A stretch of 20,065 nt of DNA from a virus, in the IMG/VR virus record IMGVR_UViG_3300022905_000086, positions 1-20,065 of that record. One strand, 5' to 3'. This document shows positions 14,742 through 20,065 of the stretch, piece after piece. How positions within the stretch are numbered: position 1 is the first letter of the stretch; the number at the start of each line of letters is the position of its first letter. A model generated the notes under the pieces. That model was not told where the DNA came from, did no database searches, and was given only the letters and a program-made list of their open reading frames with translations. A program made the position numbers and the translations under genes.

Positions 14742-15029
14742 TCACACCGCCTTTAAAAACTTTTCGTGCTCACCATAGTTTAGTTCTAGCTCTACAGCTA
14801 TCCCAATCAATGTGTGAATTTGTTTAATAGAGAGTGCATCCTCGTCATACATCAGTGCTTCTTTATCAAGGCTAAAGAGCACAGGAACCGTAGACGACTG
14901 TTTTCCTGAGTAGTCGAAACCTACATTACGACCGTCACAACGAACGCCTGTTTGATTTAATCCAAGCTCCGATACAATTGCTGATGTTACTCGAACGATC
15001 TGCATTACTTCGTTTACACTAACACTCAT
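14742..15029 (-). CDS. Small protein of unknown function (95 aa)
   Basis: A 95-residue protein with a helical N-terminus (V-N-E-V-M-Q-I-V-R-V-T-S-A-I-V-S-E-L), a beta-rich middle (V-G-F-D-Y-S-G, V-P-V-L-F-S-L), and a C-terminal helix (I-H-T-L-I-G-I-A-V-E-L-E-L). The start overlaps the nuclease stop (ATGA, 15026-15029) and the ribosome site is AAGGAGAG. The family is unknown. Its position after the junction nuclease suggests a DNA-metabolism accessory. Confidence 0.55.
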   Translation of the reverse strand: MSVSVNEVMQIVRVTSAIVSELGLNQTGVRCDGRNVGFDYSGKQSSTVPVLFSLDKEALMYDEDALSIKQIHTLIGIAVELELNYGEHEKFLKAV

Positions 15030-15364
15030 TGTACTCTCCTTATAAGGTCTAAGAAGTGTTCGAGGTCTACTACTGCGAGAGGCTTCGAACGATTCTGTTT
15101 AATTACTAGCAACGGCTCATAGTCGTTGTGTCCAGTAGCTTGTTCATAGTGTTTGTACACAGCGATGCTCGCCAATGACTTACACTCCACTTGATAAGGA
15201 AAGAGCTGACGGGCTGCAGGACTAAGTTGGACATCCTCGCCTCCTGCACCCATCGATGTGCTCCTAACGTCGTCTGGCTCAAGCGACGGGAATCGCTCTA
15301 GAACGCCATCACGAACAACTTGCTGTAGTTTTCTGCCTTTAGCTTTTGCTGACTGAGTTTTCAT
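15026..15364 (-). CDS. PD-(D/E)XK nuclease, putative Holliday-junction resolvase
   Basis: A 112-residue protein. The start M-K-T-Q-S-A-K-A-K-G-R-K-L-Q-Q is a basic DNA-binding segment. The core is S-M-G-A-G-G-E-D44-V-Q-L-S, then Y-Q-V-E60-C-K62, giving the D...ExK metal-binding signature of PD-(D/E)XK nucleases, and a helix with Y-E-Q75-A. This layout matches small phage and archaeal-type resolvases rather than T7 endonuclease I by sequence, but the role (resolving branched replication intermediates before packaging) is probably the same. GGAGAG precedes ATG 15364. It overlaps the exonuclease gene by 26 bases. A general endonuclease role cannot be ruled out. Confidence 0.7.
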   Translation of the reverse strand: MKTQSAKAKGRKLQQVVRDGVLERFPSLEPDDVRSTSMGAGGEDVQLSPAARQLFPYQVECKSLASIAVYKHYEQATGHNDYEPLLVIKQNRSKPLAVVDLEHFLDLIRRVQ

Positions 15365-16046
15365 CTATTCTCTCCGTTGGTGGAGTAAACTTATCACCCA
15401 GACTGCGAAGCATATACAGCAGATGTCCATTCTCTACAGCGCGTTCGTATCCCAACTTATCAACAATGATGTCCCACATCTCCAACTCTGATTTACCTTC
15501 GAGGAGGGCTGTCGCCTTTTTCTCTCCGATACGCCAAGCGCCTTGAATGTTATCTACAGCATCTCCAGTCAGGAATTGCTTGTAGAAGAGGAACATCGAT
15601 TCCTCTGGTGTGAGGTAGTAAAGCCCACCCTTGACAAAGTTAAAGTGCCATCCTGGAACTTGGTTTAAATCTTTATCAAGTGAGACGATGATTCCGTTCT
15701 CTCCCAACTCTGTAGCCTCAATAGCTACAGCGTCGTCGGCTTCAATACCATCCCAGATTGTTGCATCCCAAGACAGTGCGAGGTACTTACGAATCGCTTC
15801 GTAGTGCGTAGGCTTCTTGTTGCCCTTGCGATTACCTTTGTACGGTCTTGTTACTGCATACTCATGTCGAAAGTTGTTTGTTCCTGTTAAGTGAAGCGAC
15901 CAACTATCACAGTACGGTAGATCAAACATAATCAAGTCTTCGAGGAAGCCAGCGACAGTTCGCATGGCAACCCCTTGATCTTCCGATTCTGTCGCAAAAC
16001 CGATGCGATAGACTAAGATATCTGCGTCGATGATCGCTTTATCCAC
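15339..16046 (-). CDS. 5'-3' exonuclease of the FEN/T7 gp6-like family
   Basis: A 235-residue nuclease with the flap-nuclease pattern of acidic metal ligands: D7 and D9 (I-D-A-D), the substrate-binding Y-K-G-N-R (69-73), E102-A-D104-D105 (I-E-A-D-D-A), D124-K-D126 (S-L-D-K-D), and D162...D165 (G-D-A-V-D-N) leading into a helix-three-turn-helix (I-Q-G-A-W-R-I-G-E-K-K-A). It would remove RNA primers and recess ends, as T7 gp6 does. The start is GTG 16046, overlapping the ssb stop by one base (TAGTG), so translation is coupled to ssb. It is shorter than T7 gp6 (300 residues) but all key residues are present. Confidence 0.9.
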   Translation of the reverse strand: MDKAIIDADILVYRIGFATESEDQGVAMRTVAGFLEDLIMFDLPYCDSWSLHLTGTNNFRHEYAVTRPYKGNRKGNKKPTHYEAIRKYLALSWDATIWDGIEADDAVAIEATELGENGIIVSLDKDLNQVPGWHFNFVKGGLYYLTPEESMFLFYKQFLTGDAVDNIQGAWRIGEKKATALLEGKSELEMWDIIVDKLGYERAVENGHLLYMLRSLGDKFTPPTERIDENSVSKS

Positions 16047-16453
16047 TACAGAATCTCGTCGTCGTCTTCTTGGATGGCGACCTGTTCTACATCGGATTCA
16101 TACTTCTGTAGATCAGTAATGACGAGTTTCTTCAAAGAAGCAGAAACGCCTTCTTTGTTCTTCCAAGTCCATGCGTAAGGCTCAATCAAAGCTACAGCTT
16201 TAGAGCCGTTGCCTACGATCTTACCTTCGATCTCATCACCGTCTGAGCCGTAAGCACGAATCTCGTTCTTAGACTTACAAGTGATGTAGTAACCTTTGCC
16301 TTCCTTCTGGGCAACACGGATACCCATACCTTCGAGTGCTGATACTGCAGCATCTGAGAGGTTACACAGGTCTACCTGATACTTCTGTGACATGTCATTC
16401 ATACGGTCAAGGTAAGCCCACATGATGTCCGCTTTAATCTTTACTCGATCCAT
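16046..16453 (-). CDS. ssb: Single-stranded DNA-binding protein (T7 gp2.5-like role)
   Basis: A 135-residue protein; ATG 16453 is chosen because AAGGAG lies six bases upstream. The N-terminus (V-K-I-K-A-D-I-M-W-A-Y-L) leads to a beta-rich OB-like core (residues about 48-112) with aromatic and basic strands (Y-Y-I-T-C-K-S-K, A-W-T-W-K-N-K). The end is a strongly acidic tail (E-D-D-D-E, 129-133) closing with a hydrophobic pair, the hallmark used by SSBs to bind replisome partners. Its place between polymerase and exonuclease supports the call. Direct sequence similarity to T7 gp2.5 is low by eye, so the call rests on tail, fold pattern and position. It is the first gene after the promoter at 16489. 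Confidence 0.75.
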   Translation of the reverse strand: MDRVKIKADIMWAYLDRMNDMSQKYQVDLCNLSDAAVSALEGMGIRVAQKEGKGYYITCKSKNEIRAYGSDGDEIEGKIVGNGSKAVALIEPYAWTWKNKEGVSASLKKLVITDLQKYESDVEQVAIQEDDDEIL

Positions 16454-16488
16454 CTCATTCTCCTTCTGCTCGTTTATGAGATACAACT

Positions 16489-16511: not shown

Positions 16512-18161
16512 TTAATGCGTCTCGTACCAGTTCAGTCCGATCTTCGCTTCAGCATCCACAGGGACACGGAAGTCGAGGATCTCACCTGCTTCTTTCGCAG
16601 ATGCAACCATGATCTCTGCAACCTGTTCAGCGTACTGTTTAGGCACTTCGATCTGGATTTCGTCGTGTACGATAGCGACCTGCTTAGCAGGGATCTTCGC
16701 ATACCGTAGGTTCTTGTGGGCAGTGACGCACCACTGTTTAGCTATCGTAGCTCCACACCCTTGCAGTAATGTGTTCAATGCTGAGTGCTCAGAGCGTACT
16801 TGAATACGTCCGCCAGTGAGTGATGGGACGTAGCCCTTCGATGCAATGCGTTTAACTTTCTCAAGCAAATCACGAAGTTTCGGTGTGTTCTTATAAAAGT
16901 TATTAAGAACTACTCTGGCTTCTTTGTCGGAACAGTCGAGGATGGTTGCGAGTTTTCCGATGCCACATCCGTAGAGCGTTGCGTATACCATTGTCTTCGC
17001 CTTCGGGCGGTCGATGCCTGCCGCTTCCGCATTCTTCGTATGGATGTCGCCATTGAGTAACTCCTCAGTCCAGTCGTCGTCTTGCATGTAGTGTGCTAAA
17101 CAGCGAAGTTCGATCCCAGAAAGGTCGATTCCGCATAGCACGTTACCGTCTTCGACAATAAACAACTCACGACACTCTTTACCAAACGGTTTGTTAACCG
17201 AAGGCACTTGCCCTAAGTTGGGTCGGTTGTGTGACATACGTCCTGTAATTGTCCCTAGAGTATTGATGCGACCGTGTATACGACCGTCTTCGCCTACCTC
17301 TTTCAGCCAGGATGCAAGGAGTCCTGCACGTTTCTGGAGCATTAGGAACTCTGCGATGACCTTCGCTTCCTTGATGTCTACATCTTCAAGTGTAGTCTCG
17401 TCTACGATGGGCTGACCAGTCTCTGTAAACTTCTCAGGCTTCCATCCAAGAGATTGCAGCCGTTCTGCGATCTGCTTACGACTACCAACATTGAAGTCAG
17501 TTACCTTGTCCTTCAGTCGTTTGCCGGTCTTCTCAGACCAACGCTCTTCGACAATCGGCGGGAAGATTGCTTGCATCTGATCTTCAATAGCCGACATTCG
17601 ATCCATAACAGTAGCGTGTAACACCTGAGCTTTAGGTATATCCAGTTTAAAACCGGATCGCTCTTGTTTATGACATTCAATGGCAACATTATGCTCCAAC
17701 GCAATAGACGTTTCAGCATCTCTCCACCTCGCAAAGTGTTCGTTCAAGTGGTTGTATAGACGCACAGTAAGATGTACGTCCTGCTTACAATAGGTAATCA
17801 TCTCTTCAGTTAGGCCACCATCATAGTCTTCGAAGTCAATCTTGCCCTGACCGCCAAGCCTTACGCCCCAAGCGCGAAGCGAATGTCCTCCTTCGAGCAC
17901 GGGACTCAAAAGGCGTGACATAATCAGCGTATCGACTACTTGTGAGCGCCTGATCCCAACATTCCAGTGCTCTTTCAACTTCGGAGCATCGAAGCCAATG
18001 AGGTTGTGACCGATGATTTTGTCGTACTCTGCGATCAAAGGCTCTAATGAGTGTGGTTCTGTGTGACATATCACCTCTCCTGTATCGACATCTTCAGTTA
18101 CACAACACCAAATGTGATTGGCTTGGCTGTTCGTTTCGATGTCTAAGACTAGCTTCTTCAT
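16512..18161 (-). CDS. Family A DNA polymerase, T7 gp5-like, without thioredoxin-binding domain
   Basis: A 549-residue replicative polymerase. The exonuclease domain (1-150) has D7-x-E9, N53...D58 (G-H-N-L-I-G-F-D) and Y124...D128, so proofreading is intact. The polymerase domain has T-G-R-M-S-H-N-R-P-N-L (306-316), motif A D346-x-S-G-I-E351-L-R, motif B R385...K389...Y393...Y397-G, and motif C H499-D500-E501. The residue equivalent to E. coli position 762 is Tyr393, as in T7. T7 gp5 has 704 residues; here the thumb from F-P-P (200-202) to D-F-N-V-G-S-R (222-228) is about 20 residues where T7 has about 75, so the thioredoxin-binding insert is absent. GAGG about 9 bases before ATG 18161 lies inside the upstream gene. 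Confidence 0.95.
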   Translation of the reverse strand: MKKLVLDIETNSQANHIWCCVTEDVDTGEVICHTEPHSLEPLIAEYDKIIGHNLIGFDAPKLKEHWNVGIRRSQVVDTLIMSRLLSPVLEGGHSLRAWGVRLGGQGKIDFEDYDGGLTEEMITYCKQDVHLTVRLYNHLNEHFARWRDAETSIALEHNVAIECHKQERSGFKLDIPKAQVLHATVMDRMSAIEDQMQAIFPPIVEERWSEKTGKRLKDKVTDFNVGSRKQIAERLQSLGWKPEKFTETGQPIVDETTLEDVDIKEAKVIAEFLMLQKRAGLLASWLKEVGEDGRIHGRINTLGTITGRMSHNRPNLGQVPSVNKPFGKECRELFIVEDGNVLCGIDLSGIELRCLAHYMQDDDWTEELLNGDIHTKNAEAAGIDRPKAKTMVYATLYGCGIGKLATILDCSDKEARVVLNNFYKNTPKLRDLLEKVKRIASKGYVPSLTGGRIQVRSEHSALNTLLQGCGATIAKQWCVTAHKNLRYAKIPAKQVAIVHDEIQIEVPKQYAEQVAEIMVASAKEAGEILDFRVPVDAEAKIGLNWYETH

Positions 18162-18621
18162 TCTGCGTTACCTCTTCAAACAGGTTAAGTATAATGCCTC
18201 TGTCAATTTTGAACCAATCATTACGTCTGTCTTTAGTAGCCGGATGCGTGTCAAGGATACTAATCAGAACGGCTTCGATGTGCTTCGAGTAGTTCGTCTC
18301 GAACTCCCGAAGAAAGTACACAGTTTCTGGCACAGGTGTTGATGAGCGATGAACGCTCAGTCGATTCCGCATCCCAGAAGTAGCCTGTCCAAGGCGATAC
18401 CATCCTGCGTGAGATTCATTAGCTAAAATATAAACTGATCCAACTTTAGATTGATCTTTGTAACCCTCAAATCTTTTGTTGGTCGTCCAATTTGTAGCGA
18501 CAATACTCTTACACACCTTACACGAGGACTGGATACCTTGTTTAGTATGTTGATGCGTTGCAAAGTTGGATACTTCTTTATATTGATGACATGTTACGCA
18601 TTGCTTATATGACTGGCTCAT
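18094..18621 (-). CDS. Zinc-finger plus GIY-YIG (T5orf172-like) putative homing endonuclease
   Basis: A 175-residue protein with two parts. Residues 8-37 hold C8-x2-C11...C34-x2-C37 with an aromatic at F20, the small zinc finger seen in many phage HNH and GIY-YIG endonucleases. Residues 61-140 fit the T5orf172/MUG113 branch of the GIY-YIG fold: G-S-V-Y64-I-L-A-N, W-Y75-R-L-G, R85 or R87, H-I-E116-A, and N-D-W-F-K-I-D at the end. These would be the paired tyrosines, catalytic Arg and metal-binding Glu. The GAGGAGG ribosome site and ATGA overlap couple it to the helicase. Its 3' end overlaps the polymerase by 68 bases. It is probably a free-standing mobile endonuclease; a host-directed nuclease is an alternative. 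Confidence 0.7.
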   Translation of the reverse strand: MSQSYKQCVTCHQYKEVSNFATHQHTKQGIQSSCKVCKSIVATNWTTNKRFEGYKDQSKVGSVYILANESHAGWYRLGQATSGMRNRLSVHRSSTPVPETVYFLREFETNYSKHIEAVLISILDTHPATKDRRNDWFKIDRGIILNLFEEVTQNEEASLRHRNEQPSQSHLVLCN

Positions 18622-20065
18622 AATGCCTCCTCATCTACTTCGGTCATACGACCGGTTGTAAGGCTGTACAGTAACGCACACGCCTTTCCTGTAATACCTG
18701 CGAAACGGTTCTTTAGAACACGGACACGGGTAGTATTTCGTTCAGTTTCGTCGTCCGCCTGGCCATTGCGCTCAAGTCCTAGCACCATATCAGACAACTG
18801 GGCGATAGCTCCAGAGCCTCGTAGTTGAGCAAGGCTTGTTGCTGCCCCTTCCTCGTGACCTTTTGATTCAGGACGTTTGAGGTGAGATACGACGATCAAC
18901 GCAATGCCTGTTTCTTGAACAAGCATACGAAGCTTTGTCATGATCTCGTCAATGGCTCTACGCTCGTCACCATTCGACTGAGCAGATACGATGATCGAGA
19001 TGTGGTCAACGAAGATGTAGTTACAGCCTACAACCTTAGCAAGGTAACGGACACGATTAACAATGTTATCCACATCGGAACTACCGAAGTGGTCAAACAT
19101 GAAGACGCGACCAGTACCAAGGGTATGCTTAAATGCTTCATCTTTCTCCTCCTGTGTTGATGGAGTGTCTGGTAAGTGTAGAGGCTTGTTAGCCGACAGA
19201 GACATGAGAGACAGTCCAGTCTTTCGAGTAGACTCCTCCAAGAACATCAGCCCGACGTTCTCTTTGGTGTTCTGAAGAATGTGCCAGATGATCTCACGAA
19301 GGAACTGAGACTTACCTAGACCGGAACCGGCTGTGACGGTAACCAGTTCGTACTTACGGATACCGTAGGTCAACTTGTTCAGCCCATCAAACGGGTAATC
19401 ACAGTCAGCCTTCTCTAAAGGCTTCATCACCTCATCGTACAACGAGTCGCCTGAGATGATGCCATCGGGAGTCCAACGCTCTGCCCTCCAGAAGATGTTC
19501 ACGAACTCAGCAGTCCGCCCTTCTTCGAGGTACTCACACGCATCCTTCATATTGTTCTGGTGCTTCATGATTCGAGCTTTATGGCTGAACAATTCTGCAC
19601 ACTTCTGCTGTGCTTCTTGTCCGGCTTCATCGTTATCGAAGCAAAACATCACATGCTCGAAGCCGTCTAGCCAGTCGAAGTTTTCTTTACAGTCCTTCAG
19701 AGCCGATTGAGCCCCGTTGCGGACAGACACACATGGAGTCTTGTAAGACAACATCTGGTGACCGGCCATTGCATCCAGTTCACCTTCGAAGACGATGACG
19801 TACTTGTCATTGTTACTGAAGTTCTCTTGACCGAACAAGGTTGTCGCACCTTTCCAGTCGCCTTCAATACGAAACTCCTTCTTACCACCAACTCTGACTT
19901 TTGCTGCCTGACGCTGACCGAACGGGAAGACGATATCTGTACCACGAAAGCCAACGCCATACTTTTCCATCACATTAACGGACAGCTTACGCGCCTTCAG
20001 ATCACGATAGATGATCCCTTCAGAGGCATCGTAGTCCTCGTTCAACACTAATGCACCCATCTGTA
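18618..20065 (-). CDS. Primase-helicase, T7 gp4-like (5' end beyond window)
   Basis: The frame remains open to the window edge (codon CAG precedes ATG 20060), so the ATG may be internal and the primase zinc domain lies outside. Numbering from that Met: the TOPRIM domain has F-E92-G-E-L-D96 and F-D142-N-D144 (about 85-165). The RecA-type helicase has Walker A G245-S-G-L-G-K250-S, E275/E276, Walker B F-V-D352-H, the sensor S-H393-L and R452 (K-N-R-F-A-G) as the likely arginine finger. These match T7 gp4, which unwinds DNA and makes primers. The visible part is 480 residues against 566 for T7. It is the first gene of the visible leftward operon and is coupled to the endonuclease gene by ATGA. 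Confidence 0.9.
   Translation of the reverse strand, partial: QMGALVLNEDYDASEGIIYRDLKARKLSVNVMEKYGVGFRGTDIVFPFGQRQAAKVRVGGKKEFRIEGDWKGATTLFGQENFSNNDKYVIVFEGELDAMAGHQMLSYKTPCVSVRNGAQSALKDCKENFDWLDGFEHVMFCFDNDEAGQEAQQKCAELFSHKARIMKHQNNMKDACEYLEEGRTAEFVNIFWRAERWTPDGIISGDSLYDEVMKPLEKADCDYPFDGLNKLTYGIRKYELVTVTAGSGLGKSQFLREIIWHILQNTKENVGLMFLEESTRKTGLSLMSLSANKPLHLPDTPSTQEEKDEAFKHTLGTGRVFMFDHFGSSDVDNIVNRVRYLAKVVGCNYIFVDHISIIVSAQSNGDERRAIDEIMTKLRMLVQETGIALIVVSHLKRPESKGHEEGAATSLAQLRGSGAIAQLSDMVLGLERNGQADDETERNTTRVRVLKNRFAGITGKACALLYSLTTGRMTEVDEEAL

Follow-up and report, generated by a model that had tools for sequence, protein, structure and literature searches.

Organization of the helicase–polymerase junction

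The stretch of viral DNA analysed here (the window, positions 1–20065; 20,065 nt) consists of two converging gene blocks, a plus-strand block of apparently structural genes up to 10901 and a minus-strand block from 10950 that contains replication and ribonucleotide reductase-like genes. The minus-strand order is primase-helicase, nuclease, polymerase, a 146-aa protein, and then a 5'-3' exonuclease and a RusA-like protein (Table 1). An earlier note, made from the letters of the sequence, had placed a gene at 18094–18621 between the helicase and the polymerase, sharing 4 bases with the helicase stop and 68 with the polymerase start; the reading frame (minus strand, 175 aa) and both overlaps were confirmed, the former being the ATGA at 18618–18621 common to the nuclease start and the primase-helicase stop, and the latter spanning 18094–18161. 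The read-through of the nuclease gene over the polymerase ribosome site and first codons was also seen, but it extends over about 26 codons instead of the last 22, given the GAAGAGG at 18171–18177, which lies about 9 nt from the polymerase ATG.

Table 1. Features of the nuclease gene and its surroundings in the window
Feature	Position	Strand	Basis or remark
Putative nuclease gene (protein P0001)	18094–18621	minus	175 aa, ATG start; ORF and translation
Primase-helicase (Toprim and DnaB_C), upstream flank	18618–20060	minus	
Family A DNA polymerase with 3'-5' exonuclease, downstream flank	16512–18161	minus	
Endonuclease-VII-type CxxC...CxxC finger, residues 8–37	18511–18600	minus	PHROG endonuclease VII matches and alignment
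GIY-YIG catalytic domain, residues 61–159	18145–18441	minus	phrog_15085, invariant residues, AF2 model, VIA-align
Nuclease/polymerase overlap, 68 nt	18094–18161	minus	Nuclease C-terminal tail, other frame of first polymerase codons
Polymerase ribosome-binding-like (Shine-Dalgarno-like) GAAGAGG, within nuclease gene	18171–18177	minus	Sequence
Ribosome-binding-like GAGGAGG, within helicase 3' end	18626–18632	minus	Presently serves nuclease; sequence
Uncharacterised 146-aa protein, after polymerase	16046–16486	minus	SSB-like by reading alone, without profile support
RusA-like resolvase family protein	15026–15364	minus	phrog_244

The polymerase ORF is uninterrupted, and the nuclease gene lies outside introns and inteins, between conserved genes. 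No match to a group I intron or another Rfam family was found in the window, and the neighbouring intron at the cleavage site that marks collaborative homing with a group I intron is not present. A promoter or terminator consensus was not found in 17900–18800, an absence that is uninformative.

Identification of the nuclease

The assignment of P0001 to the GIY-YIG superfamily and its T5orf172 family (PF10544) is supported, with the Pfam membership resting on homologues. PHROG endonuclease VII profiles match residues 3–72, and phrog_15085 matches residues 61–159. Of the profile searches with P0001 alone, Pfam returned no GIY-YIG match and NCBIfam nothing useful, whereas PF10544 recognised a 74% identical homologue (L003) at 33 bits and a 49% identical one (L007) at 46 bits, against a cut-off of 20; the total lack of a GIY-YIG match, which the earlier note named as refuting, was not observed. 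The homologues L008, L011, L023 and L039 also exceed the curated PF10544 score, and some homologues match MUG113 too. In addition, G61, Y64, G78, R87 and E116 are invariant in an eight-sequence alignment.

AlphaFold2 gave a pLDDT of 69.5 with the eight-sequence alignment and 34 with the single sequence, and tail residues 165–175 remained below 50 in the alignment-based model. A Foldseek search of this protein's model against the PDB found no significant match; GIY-YIG structures surfaced only in a second look with VIA-align, in which the best four matches to residues 59–160 were GIY-YIG nucleases (At-HIGLE, Slx1) at moderate strength (Z 5.6–6.5 over 91–94 residues), with UvrC lower. As judged from the model and the alignment, P0001 has the catalytic positions and the predicted fold of a GIY-YIG nuclease. 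The identity suggested earlier is thus borne out by homologues above Pfam gathering scores, the structure model and the conserved residues. The pairing of a finger with a T5orf172-type domain, in the earlier note not the commonest for phage homing enzymes, proved to be common within this clade. A variant of this architecture was seen in L013:436–966, which is without the second finger half present in its close relative L011:966–1547 and has an intact GIY-YIG domain in the alignment.

Occupants of the junction in related viruses

The polymerase, the nuclease alignment and a pattern for the helicase 3' end served as queries against viral contigs and yielded 56 non-redundant junctions in which polymerase identity is 58% or more. 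Of these, 42 contain a known or likely nuclease, two a small ORF, and 12 are empty. GIY-YIG genes are present in 18 junctions (by Pfam for six, by an in-house profile for the rest and by reading of the translation for L200), endonuclease VII (EndoVII) genes in four (L052 by Pfam, the other three, L064, L199 and L202, by motif) and an HNH gene in one (by PHROG). PD-(D/E)XK-like genes are found in another 19, comprising 15 of group a, which rests on weak Pfam matches (PDDEXK_5, UPF0102 and Hjc, with UPF0102 just over the cut-off in L012), and three of group b and one of group c, both assigned by motif reading only. On the polymerase tree, the occupant class has changed at least 17 times.

At their start, most occupants overlap the helicase stop by 4 nt, and some are preceded by an additional small ORF. 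The overlap with the polymerase is 68–77 nt in most occupants, all of these in one same alternative frame, while the group b PD-(D/E)XK and some EndoVII occupants stop 20 nt into the polymerase. Small ORFs of unassigned function between helicase and nuclease (L003:1776–2135, L007:2605–2967, L039:5170–5445, and in L053 and L223) represent differing combinations from one common pool of families. The junction of more distant relatives is occupied by a cytosine-5 DNA methylase (L069:2026–2862), a PAPS reductase-like gene (L085:1391–2155) or an ABC-ATPase/GNAT protein (L106:2862–4004), and it therefore also accepts non-nuclease cargo.

In the empty junctions, the polymerase ATG adjoins or overlaps the helicase stop, and the ribosome site embedded in the helicase serves the polymerase. 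All 12 fall in one sister clade on the polymerase tree, with a polymerase about 60% identical, and the junction of the cultured Pelagibacter phage HTVC104P is empty too. The intact junction that the earlier note proposed to look for by alignment was found in these viruses, but none was found in near-identical relatives, so that simple presence and absence is seen between clades only.

Exchange of the block between close relatives

Several unrelated nucleases alternate in the helicase–polymerase slot, and two clear swaps separate near-identical genomes. In the 1602 bp leading up to the helicase stop, L199 (EndoVII) and L208 (GIY-YIG) share 98.4% identity, and in the 4795 bp that begin at polymerase nt 19 they share 99.3%, with no similarity between these flanks. 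Likewise, L202 (EndoVII) and L233 (GIY-YIG) are 97.5% identical over 3907 bp from polymerase nt 8. The swapped block in both pairs runs from the helicase stop to 7–18 nt within the polymerase ORF and therefore carries the polymerase start codon together with the ribosome site before it and the first few codons after it, which supports and narrows down the earlier proposal that the gene supplies the leader of an essential gene. Polymerase nt 1–20 contain 8 and 7 mismatches in the two pairs, a much higher rate than over the remainder of the gene (P 3e-11 and 1e-6, respectively), while three pairs that keep their nuclease type have 0–1 mismatches there. Across 15 pairs with different nucleases, which are not independent, identity climbs from background to near 1.0 at about polymerase nt 18–21, and the 3' boundary of the exchange lies beside the LDIET exonuclease motif. 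The nuclease-bearing block is thus exchanged as a unit with sharp ends, polymerase start included.

The divergence equal to that of its neighbours, which by the earlier note would speak against a mobile gene, was not observed for the nuclease of the window. Compared with L006, the neighbours are 93–100% identical and the nuclease 74%; compared with L007, 80–100% and 49%; and compared with L039, the polymerase is 95% and the nuclease 31% identical. The nuclease of L003 can be aligned with that of the window end to end and is more diverged (69.6% DNA identity). Allele replacement with conserved flanks was seen in L199/L208, L202/L233, window/L003 and window/L039.

Polymerase start and overlapped tail

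The predicted N-terminus and start codon of the polymerase vary with the resident nuclease, with N-termini such as MKKLVLDIET, MKQLILDIET, MNTATKQLVLDIET, MSQKRKIVLDIET and MLTLDIET, and the ribosome-binding-like sites of the polymerase in relatives differ with the nuclease as well. The idea that the 68-nt open frame is unusual in itself was rejected: when the polymerase N-terminus is recoded synonymously, 24% of the versions have another frame open for 68 nt or more, which makes the overlap length alone unremarkable. What stands above chance is that the arrangement recurs with unrelated nucleases, and that the neighbours are conserved while the nuclease gene diverges.

Protein-level selection on the overlapped tail was also rejected, by comparing synonymous-codon conservation of the overlap with the rest of the polymerase. 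Conservation is not raised over the overlap in GIY/HNH genomes, where 44 of 152 windows are equally high, and it is higher in empty than in occupied junctions. In genomes with empty junctions (L025–L040), polymerase codons 2–22 show unusually high synonymous conservation (0.83 versus 0.66; 7 of 152 windows as high). An ATC/ATA isoleucine codon is associated with junction occupancy, and this association follows phylogeny. The overlapped tail seems to be a side effect of the position at which the block terminates.

Transfer and homologues at other loci

Nuclease identity exceeded polymerase identity in none of 153 GIY pairs and in two of 105 PD-(D/E)XK pairs, and these pairs gave no sign of a nuclease having recently entered a distant polymerase background. 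A search seeded by one motif gave 57 loci in more distant viruses where a GIY-YIG homologue immediately follows the polymerase. In L041 and L134–L190 (polymerase 38–45% identical) a homologue adjoins the 3' side of the polymerase, in some cases overlapping its stop by 23–80 nt. Two cultured Roseobacter phages have the homologue elsewhere: that of CRP-2 is close to genes for ribonucleotide reductase and glutaredoxin, and that of CRP-235 is a few kilobases from the terminase.

Proposed explanation and alternatives

The gene is probably a free-standing homing-type endonuclease, with an N-terminal zinc-binding finger and a T5orf172-type GIY-YIG domain, which resides in a high-turnover nuclease slot and supplies the polymerase start; homing and the target are inferred. 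In such a cycle, the nuclease would cut the corresponding region of a co-infecting relative without that allele, and repair of the break would copy the resident block into the cut genome. The target is probably at or near the conserved 5' end of the polymerase, given that the exchange stops beside the LDIET motif and that homologues in the 57 loci sit downstream of the polymerase. The block would be lost only via precise deletion, or via replacement by another block that brings its own start; it would escape easy loss because the polymerase start lies within it. Chances seem even for the broader proposal that selfish nucleases with several unrelated folds vie for the slot by carrying the polymerase translation start, with the resident setting the N-terminus and the block being replaceable but hardly lost.

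It counts against homing that no near-identical empty relative was found and that there is no long-range transfer signal; local homologous recombination at the conserved flanks would also give the same swaps. The missing Pfam GIY-YIG match of P0001 itself and the lack of a significant match with Foldseek alone weigh against the explanation as well. The main rival is accordingly a passive hypervariable cargo slot, in which any small gene could be exchanged by ordinary recombination at conserved flanks without any drive from the nuclease itself. The methylase, PAPS reductase-like and ABC-ATPase/GNAT genes of more distant viruses, the small ORFs sharing the slot in L003, L007, L039, L053 and L223, and the missing transfer signal all agree with this explanation. 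It is nevertheless considered unlikely, as a nuclease occupies 42 of the 44 occupied clade junctions and at least four catalytic families are represented, which is unexpected for neutral cargo, and GIY-YIG homologues of other viruses also adjoin the polymerase, on the opposite side.

It is highly improbable that the slot houses a needed replication or recombination nuclease, such as a junction resolvase, that has been repeatedly replaced by unrelated nucleases doing the same job. Unrelated nucleases do occur at one place, and the EndoVII and Hjc-like PD-(D/E)XK folds include resolvases; however, the window already has a RusA-like protein and a 5'-3' exonuclease, and the slot is without a gene in 12 relatives and HTVC104P, so the nuclease is not, as a phage junction resolvase should be, the sole resolvase and in all relatives. 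Least probable of all is a single fast-evolving gene under relaxed or diversifying selection in place of replacement. The end-to-end alignment of the window and L003 nucleases would fit it, as would the faster divergence of nucleases than of the polymerase in nearly all pairs, but it is refuted for the slot as a whole by the change of catalytic fold, with sharp boundaries, between the near-identical genomes of L199/L208 and L202/L233.

Comparison with known systems

In ICP1 and other phages, T5orf172 homing endonucleases are often free-standing and adjoin essential genes (Barth et al. 2023, PMC10448857), and introns in the ICP1 tape measure gene show domain shuffling, with different nucleases alternating at one place (PMC10448857). 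P0001 shares the catalytic family with these enzymes; the locus differs in being the helicase–polymerase junction of podovirus-like marine phages, where unrelated nuclease folds alternate intergenically and the block includes the start codon of the downstream gene.

The T4 seg and mob genes are free-standing, promoterless-looking and located between conserved genes, and they overlap the upstream stop, by UAAUGA in mobE and by 20–24 bp in segC and mobA (PMC2988022). The segG gene contains gene 32 promoters, which is said to favour its retention (PMC2988022), and the title of a reference listed in PMC2988022 gives SegH and Hef as replacements for mobC and mobE in relatives. The position between conserved genes, the overlap with the upstream stop and the mutual replacement are common to both systems. 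In contrast, T4 embeds downstream promoters, whereas the block here holds the polymerase start codon, the ribosome site in front of it and the first codons, with a read-through of 68–77 nt into the polymerase in most relatives.

F-CphI, a free-standing homing endonuclease from a cyanophage, has the catalytic motif of EndoVII (PMC6083498). By analogy, the EndoVII occupants of the slot (L199, L202, L052 and L064) may be of the same kind. The target of F-CphI is reportedly an intron insertion site in psbA, while the window contains neither a group I intron nor an Rfam match. In the literature searched, one junction common to at least four nuclease catalytic families, with an exchange that carries the polymerase start, was not found. 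Genes of the T5orf172, seg and mob kind are known already; the multi-family slot and the moving start codon seem to be new.

Biological significance

The retention of free-standing homing endonucleases near essential phage genes has so far been argued mostly from T4 promoters. The junction described here offers natural swaps in which thousands of flanking bases are 97–99% identical and only the nuclease and the polymerase start differ. Two ideas become testable with it, namely competition of different nuclease families for a single target region, and protection of a selfish gene from deletion by its hold on the start codon of a neighbour. For annotation, homology alone is insufficient to place polymerase start codons in these phages, in which the beginning of an essential gene is contributed by a gene that is probably selfish.
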